A DNA stretch of 64,000 nucleotides from positions 5,642,001 to 5,706,000 of the forward strand of contig NZ_JAGGMR010000001.1 in NCBI RefSeq assembly GCF_017875645.1, written 5' to 3'. The notes beneath the pieces are model-generated. The model did not search any database. It was given only the letters and a program-made list of their open reading frames with translations, and was not told the DNA's origin. Of this stretch, positions 15,871 through 23,510 are shown one piece after another. Each line of letters starts with the position of its first letter. Positions within the stretch are counted from its first letter, which is position 1. Both the position numbers and the translations under genes were made by a program. The stretch is from Nocardia goodfellowii. GTDB taxonomy: Bacteria; Actinomycetota; Actinomycetes; Mycobacteriales; Mycobacteriaceae.

Positions 15871-16243
15871 CAATGCCTCCGCTCCCAGGCCGTCATAGAT
15901 GCCCATAGTCTAGGACGCGCACCCGCTCGCGCCGGTTCCGTTGCGTCCAAAGCCGCGCTACACCTTCGCAGCCTCGGTGTGCACCTTCCTGTCGTACTCA
16001 CGAATCCGGCGAGGTCGTCCATCGCCTCGCCGGATTCGCCCAAGCGCTGTCCACACCAGTCCGGCGTTGACTCCGCCCCAGGCCGCGTTCAGCCGGTCCT
16101 ACTTACTTCGACGCGACCCAGTCGCTACCGGTTCCATCGACTTTCCGAAGTCGACTACCGCACCGCTGCACAAGACCGCATACCGGTCAGGTCCCTGGCG
16201 GCCTGCGTCGCACCCCGTTCCATCGCCCACGCGGCAATCAGGC
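15871..16243. other. Intergenic region between ureC and the ESX-accessory operon
   Basis: Apart from the strong hairpin at 16001-16038 I see no gene here. It must hold the promoter of the DUF3558 operon and the end of the ureABC transcript. Confidence 0.5.
16001..16038 (-). terminator. Strong hairpin downstream of ureC
   Basis: A perfect 14-bp stem (CGAATCCGGCGAGG at 16001-16014 with 16025-16038) and a 10-nt loop lie about 205 bp after the ureC stop. There is no clear T-tract. It is probably a transcription barrier between the urease and ESX-accessory operons. Confidence 0.55.
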
Positions 16244-17965
16244 TCAAAACAGAAAGTAGCGCTGCGCCATGGGAAGTTCGGTCGCGGGTTGCTCGGTCCA
16301 CACCTCACCATCGATGCGGACCGTAAAGGTGTCCGGGTCGACTTCGATGTGGGGCATGGCGTCGTTGTGCGGCATGTCGGCTTTGGTGACGGCGCGAACA
16401 TTCTTGACGGGAGCAAGTTTTCGGCGCAGGTTCAGGCGGTCGGCGAGTCCGTCGTCGATGGCGTGTTCGGAGACGAAATGCAGGGAGGTGGCGGCTGCGG
16501 CTACCGGGGCGGCGCCGAACATGGGGCGCGGGAGGACCGGCTGCGGGGTGGGGATGGAGGCGTTGGCGTCGCCCATCGCGGCCCAGGCGATCATGCCGCC
16601 TTTGAGGACCGCGTGCGGGCGCACGCCGAAGAACGCCGGTTCCCACAGCACGAGGTCGGCGAGTTTGCCGACTTCGACGGAGCCGACCTCGTGGTCGAGG
16701 CCGTGCGCGACCGCGGGCGCGATCGTGTATTTGGCGATGTAGCGCCGCACGCGGGCGTTGTCGGCGGCGCCGTCTCCGGGCAGGGCGCCGCGGCGCTTCT
16801 TCATTACGTGCGCGGTCTGCCAGGTGCGCATGACCACTTCACCGATGCGGCCCATGGCCTGGGAGTCGCTGCCGATCATGGAGATCGCGCCGAGGTCGTG
16901 CAGCAGGTCTTCGGCGGCGATGGTCGAGGGACGGATGCGGCTTTCGGCGAACGCCAGGTCCTCCGGGATGGAGGCGCTGAGGTGGTGGCACACCATCAGC
17001 ATGTCGAGGTGTTCGTCGAGAGTGTTGACGGTGTGCGGCCGAGTGGGGTTGGTGGAGCTGGGCAGCACATTGAGATGGGAAGCGACGGTGATGATGTCGG
17101 GTGCGTGGCCGCCGCCCGCGCCCTCGGTGTGGTAGGCGTGGATGCCGCGCCCGGCGATGGCGCCGAGGGTGTCCTCGACGAATCCCGCTTCGTTCAACGT
17201 GTCCGAGTGCAGCGCCACCTGGACACCGCTGGCGTCGGCCACGCGCAGGCAGGCGTCGATCGCGGCGGGGGTGGAGCCCCAGTCCTCGTGCAGTTTGAAA
17301 CCCGCTGCGCCGCCGCGCAATTGCTCCCACATCGATTCGGCGCTGACCGTGTTGCCTTTGCCGAGCAGCACGATGTTCATCGGCCAGCTGTCCAGCGCCT
17401 CCAGCATGCGGGCCAGATGCCAGGAGCCGGGGGTGACGGTGGTGGCCTTGCTGCCTTCGGCCGGACCGGTGCCGCCGCCGATGAGCGTCGTGATGCCGCC
17501 GCCGAGCGCCTCCTCCATCAGCTGCGGGCAGATGAAGTGCACGTGGCAGTCGATGGCCCCGGCGGTGACGATGCGACCGTTGCCCGCGATGATCTCCGTC
17601 GACGGGCCGACCACCAGGTCCGGATGCACTCCGCTCATGGTGTCGGGGTTGCCGGCTTTGCCGATGGCGCAGATACGCCCGTCTCGAATACCGAGGTCCG
17701 CCTTGATGATTCCCCAGTGGTCGATGATCACGACACCGGTGATCACGGTGTCCGGGGCACCGTCCGCGCGGGTGGCTCGGGACTGCCCCATGGATTCGCG
17801 CAGCACCTTGCCGCCGCCGAAGACGGCTTCCTCACCGGCGAGACCCGGTCCGCCGGAACGGTCTTCGGTGATCTCGATCAGCAGATCGGTGTCCGCCAAG
17901 CGGATTCGGTCACCCGTGGTCGGCCCGAACAGCTCGGCGTAACGGGCACGGCTCAGTTCGGTCAT
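16244..17965 (-). CDS. ureC: Urease subunit alpha
   Basis: 573 aa catalytic subunit; hydrolyses urea to ammonia and carbamate with a dinickel centre in the cytoplasm. The nickel-binding HVH is at 141-143 ([12 protein letters not shown]). The lysine that becomes carbamylated is K224 in GFKLHEDWG. The flap cysteine and histidines are in [22 protein letters not shown]. The length is standard. The gene lies 3 bp after ureB. Accessory genes do not follow directly as they do in M. tuberculosis ureABCFGD but are about 10 kb downstream. Confidence 0.98.
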
Positions 17966-17968
17966 GTC

Positions 17969-18286
17969 CTACCTTGTCGAATCCAGGTGGCCGGGCGGGT
18001 CCAGGCTGATGCCGTGCACTTCCCGGGTGCCGCCCAGTGGAACCAGCGATACCCGCTGGGCCAGACCGGGTTCGAAGCGCACAGCGGTGCCGGCGGGAAT
18101 ATCGAGGCGGTGCCCGTAGGCGGCGGCGCGGTCGAATTCCAGGGCGGCGTTGGACTGCGGGAAATGCACGTGGCTGCCGACCTGCACCGGTCGATCGCCG
18201 GTATTGACGACTTCGAGCGCGAGTCGCTCAGCGCCGGCGTTCAGCTCGATAGCGCCTTCGGCGCACAGGTATTCACCGGGAATCAC
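17969..18286 (-). CDS. ureB: Urease subunit beta
   Basis: 105 aa, typical of the separate beta subunit found in three-gene ureases. It begins [18 protein letters not shown]. It contains the family stretch [21 protein letters not shown] and the [14 protein letters not shown]-terminal strand. It lies 3 bp from both ureA and ureC, so the three are one tightly coupled operon. Confidence 0.97.
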
Positions 18287-18289
18287 GCG

Positions 18290-18592
18290 CTATCCGATCG
18301 GATTGTGGACGGTGACGAGCTTGGTGCCGTCCGGGAAGGTGGCTTCGACCTGAACGTCGTGAATCATCTCCGGCACACCCGCCATGACATCGGTGCGCGC
18401 GAGCACGGTGCGACCCGAGGACATGAGTTCGGCGACCGTGCGTCCGTCGCGGGCCCCTTCGAGCACGTGATCGGTGATCAGCGCGACCGCCTCGGGGTGG
18501 TTCAGCTTGAGTCCGCGGGCCTGCCGGCGCCGGGCCAGTTCGGCCGCGTAGCTGAGCAGCAGCCGCTCCTGCTCGTGCGGTGACAGTCGCAT
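18290..18592 (-). CDS. ureA: Urease subunit gamma
   Basis: 100 aa gamma subunit, beginning [20 protein letters not shown], the family N-terminus. It also has the conserved [21 protein letters not shown] and [12 protein letters not shown] segments. I use the ATG at 18592, although the frame extends upstream, because all family members begin with MxLxPxEQE. First gene of the structural operon; its promoter should lie in 18593-18673. Confidence 0.97.
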
Positions 18593-18673
18593 CCGGGCTC
18601 CTCGCCGGTCGGAAGGGATGGGTGACGGACATTCTGGCACGCCCGTGCCGCCGGTGTGGGACGAGCGTCGGCC

Positions 18674-19117
18674 TCAGCTTCGCTTGGGCAGGTTTTGCAA
18701 CCGCACCTGCCCGCGCGCGATGACCCGGTCCTGTTCGTCGGTGACGACGACCTGCCACAGCTGCTGCAGCCGCCCGCGGTGGATCGGCGTGGCCTCGGCG
18801 GTCAGGGTGCCCGCGCTCACGGCGCGCAGGAAGTCGGTGTTGTTGTTGACGCCGACGACATTGCCCTGGTCGCCGTACCAGTACTGACCGCCGGTGCTGG
18901 CCAGCGATTCGATGACGGTGCACAGCACGCCGCCGTTCTGAATCCCGGCCGGCTGGTACAGGTGCGGCTTCACCACCCATTCGCCGCACACCCGGTCGGG
19001 CCCCACCTCGGTGAAGCGCAGCCCGATCAGATCGGTGAAGGTGCCCTCGCTGTACTTGGTCATCATCTCGGGTGTCAGTTCGCCGATCGAGGTGGGCGCA
19101 AGCGGTTTGTCGGTCAT
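18674..19117 (-). CDS. PaaI-type hotdog-fold thioesterase (Rv1847-like)
   Basis: 147 aa acyl-CoA thioesterase of the PaaI/4HBT group. The hotdog core shows in GLRFTEVGPDRVCGEWVVKPHLYQPAGIQNGGVLCTV, where QPAGIQNGG is the catalytic helix region. A second half carries NNTDFLRAVSAGTLTAEATPIHRG, as in the family. It precedes ureABC on the same strand, exactly as Rv1847 precedes ureA in M. tuberculosis. The ATG lies only about 12 nt after the T-rich tail of a terminator hairpin, so translation may start from a leaderless or very short-leader transcript (TAGGCT is a possible -10). Confidence 0.9.
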   Translation of the reverse strand: MTDKPLAPTSIGELTPEMMTKYSEGTFTDLIGLRFTEVGPDRVCGEWVVKPHLYQPAGIQNGGVLCTVIESLASTGGQYWYGDQGNVVGVNNNTDFLRAVSAGTLTAEATPIHRGRLQQLWQVVVTDEQDRVIARGQVRLQNLPKRS

Positions 19118-19129
19118 AACTCAGAGCCT

Positions 19130-19170
19130 AAACAGAGCGGCGGGCCCCACCCGAAGGTGGAGCCCGCCGC
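19130..19170 (-). terminator. Intrinsic terminator
   Basis: GCGGCGGG pairs with CCCGCCGC (8 bp, 19163-19170 with 19137-19144) and an inner CCACC/GGTGG around a 4-nt loop; the minus strand continues TCTGTTTAGG. It lies 20 bp before the thioesterase start. Confidence 0.75.
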
Positions 19171-19227
19171 GGCAAGGAACGGGGAGTCGACCGCAGCCCT
19201 CGGGACTCCCGCTCGATCCGAACGCCG
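19130..19227 (-). ncRNA. Candidate IdeR-controlled small RNA, positional counterpart of MrsI (ncRv11846)
   Basis: A good promoter under an IdeR-type box ends near 19234, and an intrinsic terminator ends near 19130, leaving a transcript of about 98 nt with no reading frame. Predicted structure: a first hairpin pairs GGGAGTC (19210-19204) with GACTCCC (19188-19182). Next comes an unpaired linker (CGTTCCTTG), then the terminator stem GCGGCGGG/CCCGCCGC with inner CCACC/GGTGG and a TTCG-type loop. In mycobacteria the iron-sparing small RNA MrsI is controlled by IdeR and lies just upstream of the Rv1847 gene on the same strand. This candidate sits just upstream of the Rv1847-like gene on the same strand. 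Expression and targets are inference. Confidence 0.7.
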
Positions 19228-19233
19228 AAAACG

Positions 19234-19263
19234 AGTATAGGTCAGGCTTACCTAAGTTGGCAA
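19234..19263 (-). promoter_or_regulatory. Promoter with overlapping IdeR/DtxR box
   Basis: Minus strand: -35 TTGCCA (19258-19263), 18-nt spacer, -10 TATACT (19234-19239). An iron box (19237-19255) matches 16 of 19 positions of the TTAGGTTAGGCTAACCTAA consensus and overlaps spacer and -10, so iron-loaded IdeR would block transcription. The box covers the stop codon of the FhuF-like gene. Confidence 0.75.
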
Positions 19264-19964
19264 GTGTCTGGCACGACGGAGGGGCTGCGCCGCACCGGCA
19301 AGCCGCGTTCCTCCAGTGCCATCAGCAGCCCCTGACCGCGCCGGGCCGCCTCGACCGGGCTGGTGCGGGCCAGTTCCGGCACGTAAGTGCTTGCGCCGAC
19401 AATGGATTCACCGACCAGCGCCCAGAACCGCCGCGCCCCCAGACCGGCGCACCGCGCCAGCGCCTGCTGGATCAACGTCAGCGAGGAGGCGCAGCGATGC
19501 GCCAGCCACACATACATCGCCCGCTCACAGGGGAAGGTCACCACGCCGGATTCACCCGCCAGGCGATCACCGGGCAGCACGCGAATCGTGGTGTCCACCA
19601 AGCCCGCCCAGTCGATCCCGCCGTCGTTGTCGTTGTGGATCCACAGGTTCTCGAGTCCGGGATCCCAGGCCCGGCCCTCGACCATCAGCAGGGCGCTCAC
19701 CCGGCCGATCACCGCGTGGATCAGCGCCGTCGCAACGACTTCGGCGGCGATGTCCGCACTGATCATCTCCGCGGCATGCCGTCGGTACATCAGCTCGATG
19801 CGACCCTCACCCAGCCCGGTGGCGAGCTGCCACCAGCGCCGCTTGCCCTGATCAGCCATGTCGGCAACGGCGTAGACGCGCGGATGTTCCGGTTGCAGCG
19901 CACGCAATCGGGTGCAGGCGCGGTCGAACGGCTGCTGCGAGCGGATGGTCATGGGCTCGAGCAT
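19248..19964 (-). CDS. FhuF-like siderophore-associated protein without the Fe-S cysteine motif
   Basis: 238 aa. The sequence resembles the iron-transport FhuF group: AAEVVATALIHAVIGRVSALLM, then LWIHNDNDGGIDWAG and a LPGDRLAG strand. Classic FhuF reductases end in a paired-cysteine motif (CCxxxxxxxxxxCxxC) that binds a 2Fe-2S cluster; here only isolated cysteines remain, so redox activity is doubtful. The start at 19964 has GAGGAGG upstream. It is divergent from the FecCD importer with a shared IdeR box, so a role in iron release from an imported siderophore is a reasonable inference. Confidence 0.7.
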   Translation of the reverse strand: MLEPMTIRSQQPFDRACTRLRALQPEHPRVYAVADMADQGKRRWWQLATGLGEGRIELMYRRHAAEMISADIAAEVVATALIHAVIGRVSALLMVEGRAWDPGLENLWIHNDNDGGIDWAGLVDTTIRVLPGDRLAGESGVVTFPCERAMYVWLAHRCASSLTLIQQALARCAGLGARRFWALVGESIVGASTYVPELARTSPVEAARRGQGLLMALEERGLPVRRSPSVVPDTCQLR

Positions 19965-20004
19965 CGAACCTCCTCGGTGTCGGCTCCGTTGTGGGTCGAC
20001 ACCG

Positions 20005-20034
20005 AACATAGGTTAGCCTTACCAGACCTAGCAA
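20005..20034. promoter_or_regulatory. IdeR/DtxR-type iron box in divergent promoter region
   Basis: The box at 20008-20026 matches 15 of 19 positions of the IdeR consensus (core TAGGTTAGCCTTACC). For the minus-strand FhuF-like gene it overlaps TTGCTA (20029-20034), an 18-nt spacer and TATGTT (20005-20010). This is the same geometry as the promoter at 19234-19263. It is also 46 bp upstream of the FecCD start, so it likely controls both directions. Confidence 0.8.
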
Positions 20035-20071
20035 GAGTGAATGTTGAATCAGTCAGGAGAAGTTCCACCCA

Positions 20072-21118
20072 GTGACACTCCTCGGCACGATCAGGCGACG
20101 ACGCCGGATCGGACTTCTCCTCAGCGCCGCGCTGCTCTGTCTCGCGGCGCTGGCGAGTATTGCCGTCGGAACCCGATCCCTTTCTCCGGCCACGGTTTAC
20201 GACGCCGTACACACCGCGCTGACCTGCGCGAGCGGGCCGTTCGAATGCCCCGCGCGGTCGACGGCGGAGGAGATCGTGCGCGGACTCCGGCTGCCCCGCA
20301 CGGCACTCGCCCTGGTGTGCGGCCTCGCGCTCGGCATCACCGGCGCGCTGATCCAGGGCTACACCCGCAACCCGCTCTCCGACGCCGGGCTGCTCGGATT
20401 GAACTCGGGGGCGGCCTTTCTCGCCGCGTTGAGCGTCTACCTGTTCAGCTTCACTGCTCCGCGGCAGTACATCGGTTTCGCCTTCGCCGGGACATTGCTC
20501 GCCGGACTGGTGGTCTTCGGCGCGTCCTCGCTGGGCGGCGGCAAGGCCAGTCCGTTGAGCCTCGTACTGGCGGGCGCTGCCGTAGCCGCGTTCCTGCAAG
20601 CGATGACGAATGCCGTTGTGCTGCTGGACCCCGCCGCACTCGACACCTACCGATTCTGGGTGGTCGGCACTGTCGCCGGACGTGACGCCCAGGTGTTCTG
20701 GCAGGTATTGCCGTTCCTGATGATCGGTTCGGTCCTGGCGGTGGCCGCCGCGCCCGGCCTGAACCTGCTCACCCTCGGTGACGAGGTGGCGCGCGGTCTC
20801 GGCGTGCACATCGGTCGCAGCCGGGCATTGGGTCTCGCCGCGATCGTCCTGCTGTGCGGCGCGGCCACCGCCGCGATCGGTCCGATCGTGTTCTTGGGGC
20901 TGATCGTGCCGCATCTCGCGCGCGTGCTCACCGGACCCGATTACCGCTGGCTGATCCCCTGTTCCGGGCTGCTCGGCGGGCTGCTCCTCCTCGTCGCCGA
21001 CATCGCGGGCCGGGTCGTCAACCGGCCGGGTGAACTCGAGGTCGGCGTTATGCTCGCGGCTATCGGGGCACCGTTCTTCATCGCTCATGTGCGCCGCCGG
21101 AAGCTGGTGAGCCTGTGA
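20072..21118 (+). CDS. Iron-siderophore ABC transporter permease (FecCD family), subunit 1
   Basis: 348 aa integral membrane permease with about ten hydrophobic segments. It carries the family stretch RLPRTALALVCGLALGITGALIQGYTRNPLSDAGLLGLNSGA near residues 72-110 and the cytoplasmic coupling region GLIVPHLARVLTGPDYRW. The start is a GTG with AGGAGAA upstream. It overlaps the second permease by 4 nt (GTGA). No substrate-binding lipoprotein gene is in the cluster, so it must be elsewhere. Iron repression through the box at 20008 is expected. Confidence 0.93.
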   Translation: MTLLGTIRRRRRIGLLLSAALLCLAALASIAVGTRSLSPATVYDAVHTALTCASGPFECPARSTAEEIVRGLRLPRTALALVCGLALGITGALIQGYTRNPLSDAGLLGLNSGAAFLAALSVYLFSFTAPRQYIGFAFAGTLLAGLVVFGASSLGGGKASPLSLVLAGAAVAAFLQAMTNAVVLLDPAALDTYRFWVVGTVAGRDAQVFWQVLPFLMIGSVLAVAAAPGLNLLTLGDEVARGLGVHIGRSRALGLAAIVLLCGAATAAIGPIVFLGLIVPHLARVLTGPDYRWLIPCSGLLGGLLLLVADIAGRVVNRPGELEVGVMLAAIGAPFFIAHVRRRKLVSL

Positions 21119-22209
21119 CGGTCACGGAACACACTGTGCTGCAGAATGTTCGGCCTGCCGCCCGGGTCGGGCCGATATCGCTGGTGTGGCGGCCCGCGAT
21201 GGTGACGATCATCGTCATGCTCGCGGCATTGCTGTCGGTGGCATTCTGCTGGCATGTGGCACAAGGCGATTCGCCGATCCCGCTGAGCCGGGTGCTCGAT
21301 GTGTTGTCCGGCGGCGGGACCCGCTCGCAGCGGTTCATCGTCCTGGAATCGCGTCTGCCGCGCGCGCTCACCGCGGTACTCGTCGGCGCCGCGCTGGGCA
21401 TGTCGGGCGCGATCACGCAGTCGATTCTGCACAACCCGCTGGCCGGCCCCGACATGCTCGGCATCACGACCGGCGCGAGCGTCGGCGCGGTCGCCGTCAT
21501 CGTCGGCACCGGCGCGACAACGGGTTTCGCGGCCACCATCGGCGCGCCGCTGGCCGCGCTCGCCTGCGGTCTGCTCACCGCGATGCTGATCTATCTGCTG
21601 GCCTGGGGCCGCGGCCGGACCGGCGAAAGCGGCGCGACCGGTTTGCGGTTGGTGCTCGTCGGCATCGGCGTGAACGCGGTCATGGTCGCCGCCCTGAGCT
21701 GGCTGGTCGCCCGCGCGTCGCTGCTGGACGCGATGCGGGCGCAGCAATGGTTGACCGGCTCGCTGAACGCCGTCGACCAGGGCAGACTCGTGCCGACCGC
21801 CTTGGCGCTGGCGCTGGTCGCCGCGGTCGCGCTGATCTCGGCGCGCACCTTGGCCGCACTGCGCCTCGGCCACGAAACCAGCCGGGTACTCGGTGTGCGC
21901 ATCCAAACCCAGCAGGCGCTGCTGATCGGCGCGGCCGTGGCGGCGGCCTCGATCGCGACCGCCGCCGTCGGACCGATCTCGTTCGTAGCGCTGGCCGCAC
22001 CGCAGATCGCGCGGCGCCTGCTGCGAACCCCCGGCGAACCGCTTGTCGGCTCGGCGCTCGTCGGCGCCCTCGGCGTGGTGGGCTCGGACGTGGCGGCTCG
22101 CACCTTGTTTCCCGTCGACCTGCCCGCGGGCATCCTCACCGCCGCGTGCGGCGGACCGTTCCTGTTGTATTTGCTTGTGCGTATGAATCGGAAGGCGACC
22201 CTGTCATGA
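21115..22209 (+). CDS. Iron-siderophore ABC transporter permease (FecCD family), subunit 2
   Basis: 364 aa partner permease. A cytoplasmic N-terminal tail is followed by multiple membrane segments and the matching family motif ITQSILHNPLAGPDMLGITTGASVGAV. The coupling helix region is VALAAPQIARRLLRTPGEPL. It is translationally coupled at both ends, with a 4-nt overlap to subunit 1 and an ATGA overlap to the ATPase. Together they form the heterodimeric channel for a ferric siderophore. Confidence 0.93.
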   Translation: MTVTEHTVLQNVRPAARVGPISLVWRPAMVTIIVMLAALLSVAFCWHVAQGDSPIPLSRVLDVLSGGGTRSQRFIVLESRLPRALTAVLVGAALGMSGAITQSILHNPLAGPDMLGITTGASVGAVAVIVGTGATTGFAATIGAPLAALACGLLTAMLIYLLAWGRGRTGESGATGLRLVLVGIGVNAVMVAALSWLVARASLLDAMRAQQWLTGSLNAVDQGRLVPTALALALVAAVALISARTLAALRLGHETSRVLGVRIQTQQALLIGAAVAAASIATAAVGPISFVALAAPQIARRLLRTPGEPLVGSALVGALGVVGSDVAARTLFPVDLPAGILTAACGGPFLLYLLVRMNRKATLS

Positions 22210-23132: not shown

Positions 23133-23510
23133 ATGGCAGGACTTGGTGAACTCGAGAAAGCGGTCATGGACCAGCTGTGGTCCAGCGACGAACCGCAAAC
23201 GGTACGGCAGGTGCACGAGGCATTGGCCGCACGTCGCGAGCTTGCCTACACCACGGTGATGACCGTGCTGCAGCGTCTGGCGAAGAAGAACCTGGTGGTT
23301 CAGCGCCGCGATGATCGGGCCCATCGTTATGCGCCGGTGCACACCCGCGACGAGCTCGTGGCGAGCCTGATGTTCGACGCGCTCCAGCAAGCGGAGGAAA
23401 AGGGCAGCCGCGCAGCGGCACTCGTACACTTCGTCGAGCAGGTCGGACGCGACGAAGCCGACGCGTTGCGCGAGGCACTCGCTAAGCTCGAAGACAACGA
23501 GGGGACGTAA
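23133..23510 (+). CDS. blaI: BlaI/MecI/CopY-family transcriptional repressor (Rv1846c-like)
   Basis: 125 aa winged-helix repressor. The N-terminus GELEKAVMDQLWSSDEPQTVRQVHEALAARRELAYTTVMTVLQRLAKK matches BlaI closely; the TTVMTVLQRL recognition helix is at residues 41-50. The C-terminal helical dimer region carries the protease-sensitive area. It is followed 42 bp later by an M56 peptidase, as in M. tuberculosis Rv1846c-Rv1845c. In mycobacteria BlaI represses beta-lactamase and ATP synthase genes; no beta-lactamase gene is in this window, so its target is elsewhere. Confidence 0.92.
   Translation: MAGLGELEKAVMDQLWSSDEPQTVRQVHEALAARRELAYTTVMTVLQRLAKKNLVVQRRDDRAHRYAPVHTRDELVASLMFDALQQAEEKGSRAAALVHFVEQVGRDEADALREALAKLEDNEGT

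Follow-up and report, generated by a model that had tools for sequence, protein, structure and literature searches.

A 64,000-nucleotide stretch of Nocardia goodfellowii DNA (the window; positions are counted from its first letter) carries a promoter, an iron box and a structured RNA with a terminator, and the best reading of their sequence is an IdeR-repressed orthologue of the mycobacterial RNA MrsI in which the seed has been kept and the targets have changed. MrsI, or ncRv11846, has reportedly been studied in M. tuberculosis and M. smegmatis by Gerrick et al. in 2018. In passages of three reviews it is an RNA of about 100 nt with an IdeR site and a terminator; its apical loop measures 7 nt and its seed 6 nt, and its targets are bfrA, hypF and fprA (PMC11188477, PMC8628891, PMC12101431); a passage of one of these places it between blaI and Rv1847 (PMC8628891). 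The proposed identity with MrsI rests on the locus, on a covariance model and on these published properties, and together they support an earlier sequence-only reading of this DNA as the MrsI counterpart.

When iron is plentiful, IdeR-Fe(II) would occupy the box over the -35 and -10 hexamers and block transcription. When iron is short, the promoter would fire and yield an RNA of about 95 nt ending at the terminator, whose apical loop would expose GGGCUG for pairing with CAGCCC in mRNA leaders. The paired mRNAs would encode dispensable iron-using or iron-storing proteins, and lowering their expression would spare iron. We infer IdeR binding, iron induction and repression by pairing from the analogy with MrsI, and the RNA is probably switched on by iron shortage. 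Taken as a whole, an explanation by a stand-alone, trans-acting sRNA gene, the Nocardia orthologue of MrsI, repressed by IdeR and iron-sparing through seed pairing, seems to us highly likely.

The element and its neighbours in the window

The element and the genes around it are as follows.

19258..19263, minus strand: -35 hexamer TTGCCA, from a promoter scan
19237..19255, minus strand: iron box TTAGGTAAGCCTGACCTAT, a predicted IdeR-type operator overlapping the promoter
19234..19239, minus strand: -10 hexamer TATACT, 18 nt from the -35 hexamer, from the promoter scan
19131..19227, minus strand: body of the MrsI-type small RNA, about 95 nt by prediction, from the fold and covariance models R1 and R2
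19194..19200, minus strand: 7-nt apical loop AGGGCUG of the predicted fold
19199..19194, minus strand: 6-nt core GGGCUG, the proposed seed, kept in 37/37 aligned relatives
19137..19170, minus strand: intrinsic terminator, stem of 15 bp and loop of 4, a covarying stem in relatives
18674..19117, minus strand: hotdog thioesterase, best solved-structure match Rv1847 of M. tuberculosis
16244-17965, 17969-18286 and 18290-18640, minus strand: ureC, ureB and ureA, downstream of the thioesterase
19248..20009, minus strand: upstream ORF, weakly FhuF-like (PF06276, E 0.023, below the cut-off)
20008..20026, minus strand: second iron box, weaker at 2 mismatches, with the FhuF-like gene on one side and the divergent permease genes for siderophores on the other
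20072..22209, plus strand: two FecCD-type siderophore permease genes (20072-21118 and 21115-22209)
23133..23510, plus strand: BlaI-type repressor, divergent from the RNA, on the other flank of the MrsI locus

The observation of a promoter, a box, a structured RNA and a terminator is confirmed. TTGCCA-18-TATACT lies where the sequence-only reading had put it and is the only sigma-70-like match within 16000-21000 (shuffle mean 0.4). The box had been credited with 16 of 19 consensus positions, which holds for the strand opposite to the RNA, the RNA strand giving 15; the 19-bp consensus and the pattern TWAGGTWAGSCTNACCTWW used for scoring are those which we take to be the accepted ones. With that assumed pattern, the box is the sole zero-mismatch match across the 8-Mb genome; allowing up to 2 mismatches on either strand gives 13 matches, against 0 for the reversed pattern. 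The terminator claimed downstream of the promoter is also there: its stem of 15 pairs (19170..19137) is the longest among three terminator-like matches in the 16000-21000 scan, although such matches by themselves are not rare (3 found versus a shuffle mean of 2.1) and the U tract is short. The RNA ends follow from these signals, the 5′ end being placed about 7 nt past the -10 hexamer and the 3′ end at the terminator. The predicted fold (-61.7 kcal/mol, z -3.75, equalled in 1 of 200 shuffles) consists of a hairpin with the 7-nt apical loop AGGGCUG and of the terminator hairpin.

The further claim that no reading frame lies between promoter and terminator calls for one correction. The 37 relatives compared share no start-like triplet ahead of the terminator hairpin; some of them have just a GTG inside that hairpin, and one is without any start-like triplet. 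The correction is that the upstream FhuF-like ORF runs with its last codons into the promoter and box, its stop being at 19248-19250. This ORF has no NCBIfam match, and its true start may be internal to the frame listed above. Rfam (4227 families) gave no match to 19000-19400 up to E 1.

On the downstream side, the thioesterase ATG is about 20 nt beyond the RNA end on the same strand. The names ureA, ureB and ureC are those which we presume for the ORFs spanning 16244..18640; as tblastn queries, these urease ORFs gave matches adjoining the thioesterase in part of the relatives. The Rfam family 5_ureB_sRNA (RF02514) matches 17509-17803 on the plus strand with 67 bits, antisense to ureC, which is probably similarity of the urease coding sequence and not an RNA gene. 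The BlaI-type protein has as its best solved-structure match 2g9w, which we take to be M. tuberculosis BlaI.

Structure, conservation and taxonomic range

Covariation supports the predicted structure. In an alignment of 37 diverse sequences, fitted to a covariance model, which favours structure, standard pairs fill 98.1% of the paired cells and both sides have changed in 22 of the 27 pairs; of 500 shuffles, none came up to the alignment in any of five covariation measures. When the partner was slid by 1 to 3 columns, pairing fell to 34-46%. The middle pair of the loop-closing stem is U-A in 26 sequences, C-G in 10 and A-U in one (n=37). GGGCUG is present in the loop of all 37 aligned relatives, an invariance that is partly selected for because the Nocardia and Rhodococcus rows were chosen by the motif and the remaining rows by a model built from them. 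Among the 30 best loci of the genus, picked by BLAST and not by motif, the loop motif is present in 30. Covariation in the stem, combined with a loop that stays the same, suggests a seed, as far as the aligned sequences go.

In other Nocardia the promoter, box and RNA are kept, the conservation on which the sequence-only reading depended. Of the 150 genomes searched in the genus, 147 have the element at the DNA level, and two of the three misses are genomes 78 and 85% complete. A scan of named genomes for the thioesterase gave 48 loci, of which 43 (38 Nocardia, 5 Rhodococcus) were examined further. Forty of the 43 have the RNA motif; L052, L064 and L069 are without it, and contig ends truncate L052 and L064. 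The five loci left out (L073-L076 and L078, L075 being Rhodococcus) are all without the motif. In all 40 motif loci the box matches at least 14 of 19 positions and the -35 hexamer is TTGNNN; the -10 hexamer is TATACT in 23 and a related hexamer in the others. Such conservation is far beyond chance.

For the wider range, covariance model R1 was built from 32 sequences and R2 from 37 diverse ones, with matches counted at E up to 0.01. L137 and L136 were excluded from alignment A4. Of 401 genomes searched in the family Mycobacteriaceae (GTDB), R1 matched 302, which belong to 21 of the 31 genera; in a search of genus g9 it matched 59/59. R2 matched 340 of 396 genomes, a few of them weakly, in genus g29, the genus closest to M. 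tuberculosis (BlaI identity up to 95%, Rv1847 up to 83%), and by these protein identities g29 is Mycobacterium. Among the matches listed, none lies at 2096766, the H37Rv coordinate published for MrsI. Genus g23 is Rhodococcus: the RNA sequence of its locus L114, as printed, is identical to that of the named Rhodococcus locus L066. A search of the order gave matches in 93 of 397 genomes, 25 of them outside the family. Because these 25 all score at most 33.6 bits, against at least 45.7 bits for full-length copies inside the family (one truncated copy has 38.3), the element looks restricted to the family on sequence, and it appears to be absent from some of its genera. We treated as noise the 25 out-of-family matches and those of two g3 genomes (34.0 and 25.9 bits), also two antisense covariance matches, and second matches without the loop (L306 and L307, for example). 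Taken at the level of sequence, the promoter, box, structure, conservation and locus are established.

Some small mycobacterial genomes depart from this picture. At L303 and L305 (genomes of 3.1 and 3.3 Mb) just fragments of the thioesterase are matched, and the RNA has decayed, with the loop or the terminator altered; the L303 copy deviates from the GGGCUG loop. Another small mycobacterial genome, G916, gave no RNA match.

The complement of the proposed seed before bfrA

CAGCCC, the complement of GGGCUG, was looked for within 70 nt before bfrA in 129 of the 130 leaders collected (L287 was dropped as too short; L149 and L162, broken bfr genes at contig ends, were unused). In g29 it is present in 22 of 29 leaders from genomes with the RNA, where it is the commonest of all 6-mers, and in none of 4 from genomes without an RNA match, which may be one clade. 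Over all genera, 56 of 116 RNA-positive leaders have it versus 0 of 13 RNA-negative ones, and the 29 other permutations of CAGCCC average 6.4 of 116 RNA-positive leaders; related genomes being non-independent, these counts are not significance tests. One genome, G417 (75% complete), was counted as RNA-positive without a listed R1 match, and two RNA-negative genomes are incomplete (G163, 66%; G238, 81%). Six of the 14 RNA-positive genera have CAGCCC in at least half of their bfrA leaders, where again it is the top 6-mer. Co-occurrence of seed and anti-seed at bfrA is thereby documented, in the leader sequences, for Mycobacterium and five other genera. Four Mycobacterium genomes (G255, G177, G314 and G393; L177-L182 and L202-L205) have two bfrA genes each, and CAGCCC is not ahead of every copy.

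The pairing rule between CAGCCC and bfrA, as read from the leaders, is not general, because CAGCCC is within 70 nt of the start in 0 of 7 leaders of Nocardia, 0 of 17 of g23 and 0 of 18 of g9, though the RNA is present in these genera; a single Nocardia leader has it farther out, at -87. By eye, many of the g9 (among L216-L254) and g23 leaders have GTTCG...CGAAC, an inverted repeat, immediately ahead of the Shine-Dalgarno sequence, and in these two genera, where the MrsI complement is absent, the repeat is perhaps another control of bfrA. The N. goodfellowii genome has no bfrA match above the TIGR00754 cut-off, the nearest being a distant ferritin-like match, so MrsI-type pairing at bfrA, a trait of function that homology does not require, was not found there.

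Seed matches before a Shine-Dalgarno sequence and ATG were also scanned for. The N. goodfellowii genome gave 29 sites versus 21 for the reversed control, and two other Nocardia gave 24 versus 23 and 19 versus 10. Thirty of the 72 sites were fetched, 10 of them from N. goodfellowii, and many of the fetched ATGs were inside longer frames. None of the 10 N. goodfellowii sites resembled an iron gene by eye; the two likeliest gene starts among them, also judged by eye, encode a permease-like and an MFS-like protein. The scan being uninformative against its reversed control, we claim no target in Nocardia from it.

Locus order, competing explanations and comparison with known RNAs

The sequence-only reading had put the RNA on the same strand as, and directly upstream of, an Rv1847-like thioesterase, in the place of MrsI. 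In the window the Rv1847-type gene is directly downstream and BlaI divergent upstream, and in 30 of 30 diverse loci the thioesterase comes after the RNA on its strand. A divergent blaI is within the 1.5-kb flank in 16 of the 30 loci and directly adjacent in 14, and these 14 are without a FhuF-like gene and still have a box of 13-15/19 before the RNA. Mycobacterium agrees: all 13 genuine copies that were read in g29 have the RNA at the homologous place between blaI and the thioesterase, and at L304, the locus closest to M. tuberculosis, nothing further was found between blaI and the Rv1847-type gene. A siderophore importer had also been described as inserted between the RNA and blaI. It is present in the window, but the arrangement is not simply a Nocardia insertion. 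Since a FhuF-like gene precedes the RNA in 13 of the 30 diverse relatives and in 9 of the 13 g29 copies, that gene is not a peculiarity of Nocardia.

The short distance to the thioesterase and the shared strand, which recur in the thioesterase following the RNA in all 30 diverse loci, would fit a leader or attenuator acting in cis on the thioesterase (and urease) genes, in which hairpins gate read-through and the box is the operator of the operon. Yet the RNA points away from the thioesterase in 4 of the 40 named motif loci (L043, L046, L050 and L051, all Nocardia), and in 15 of the other 36, likewise Nocardia, the gap between them exceeds 1 kb; the one gap of these that was read, at L031, holds by eye a carbonic-anhydrase-like ORF (2098-2928) next to urease. 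Because of the four inversions and the 15 long gaps, the RNA is unlikely to serve in general as a leader of the thioesterase, and we consider this explanation improbable. The opposite orientation in the four Nocardia suggests an RNA that moves independently. Still less credit is given to a 3′-UTR-derived RNA, whereby the box and terminator would end an iron-regulated operon and the short RNA would be processed from the FhuF-like mRNA. The promoter does overlap the last codons of the FhuF-like gene, for which there is a separate iron box (20008-20026), and the gene stands before the RNA in the 13 loci counted above. But the 14 loci with an adjacent divergent blaI keep the box before the RNA without any such gene. 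The 3′ end of the FhuF-like mRNA could be a second source of the RNA.

A doubtful but weightier alternative is that the sRNA has kept its place and seed in Nocardia while no longer sparing iron, the seed serving, for example, mRNAs of uptake or metabolism. The missing bfrA of N. goodfellowii, the anti-seed absent from all seven Nocardia bfrA leaders within 70 nt, and the permease-like and MFS-like proteins at the two likeliest starts agree with it. Against it, the box is kept in all 40 named motif loci, and the seed-site scan is without clear enrichment for anything. Returning to the IdeR-repressed MrsI orthologue, we lean slightly towards the view that MrsI did not arise in mycobacteria but is an ancestral iron-starvation RNA of the whole family, in which GGGCUG has been frozen and the targets have changed by lineage; bfrA would be a target in Mycobacterium and some genera only and other mRNAs in Nocardia and Rhodococcus, the bfrA site being absent as well where the RNA was lost (some Mycobacterium).

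No report of an MrsI-type RNA outside mycobacteria was found in the literature searched, most subscription papers being outside its scope, and there may be an earlier remark on a wider conservation of MrsI, for instance among the about 50 predicted conserved RNAs of PMC3388012. A search for the loop letters returned two papers, each on human biology. The present analysis takes an iron-sparing RNA whose function has been studied in Mycobacterium to a total of 21 genera, Nocardia and Rhodococcus among them, supplies a covariance model where Rfam is without a family, and names a probable seed. It also offers hosts outside the tuberculosis group for the study of iron sparing, among relatives of the mycobacteria, for which a passage of PMC7308464 states that no Hfq or ProQ homologue has been described. 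Nocardia keeps the loop as strictly as other genera do, though the best-known target, bfrA, is missing in N. goodfellowii; the frozen loop and lineage-specific bfrA sites form a natural series on the gain and loss of sRNA targets.

RyhB, PrrF, FsrA and IsrR are presented as iron-sparing sRNAs in a passage of PMC9410917. Like them as described there, the RNA is predicted to be repressed by an iron regulator, made when iron is short, and to silence iron-using proteins. Unlike them, it has its seed inside a closed hairpin loop, a different regulator and no Rfam family match. The likeness to MrsI is closer. Both genes are between blaI and an Rv1847-type thioesterase and read toward the thioesterase, though in the window the FhuF-like gene and the siderophore permeases separate the RNA from blaI. 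Also, the bfrA leader carries the seed complement in Mycobacterium, whereas the N. goodfellowii genome is without bfrA. The loop is closed by CCG/CGG in the window and by CUG/CAG in the MrsI-type RNAs of Mycobacterium. As in MrsI, there is a predicted IdeR box at the promoter, a predicted length of about 100 nt with an intrinsic terminator, and an apical loop of 7 nt around an unvarying core of 6 nt, which agrees with the published seed in the two respects compared, length and place.
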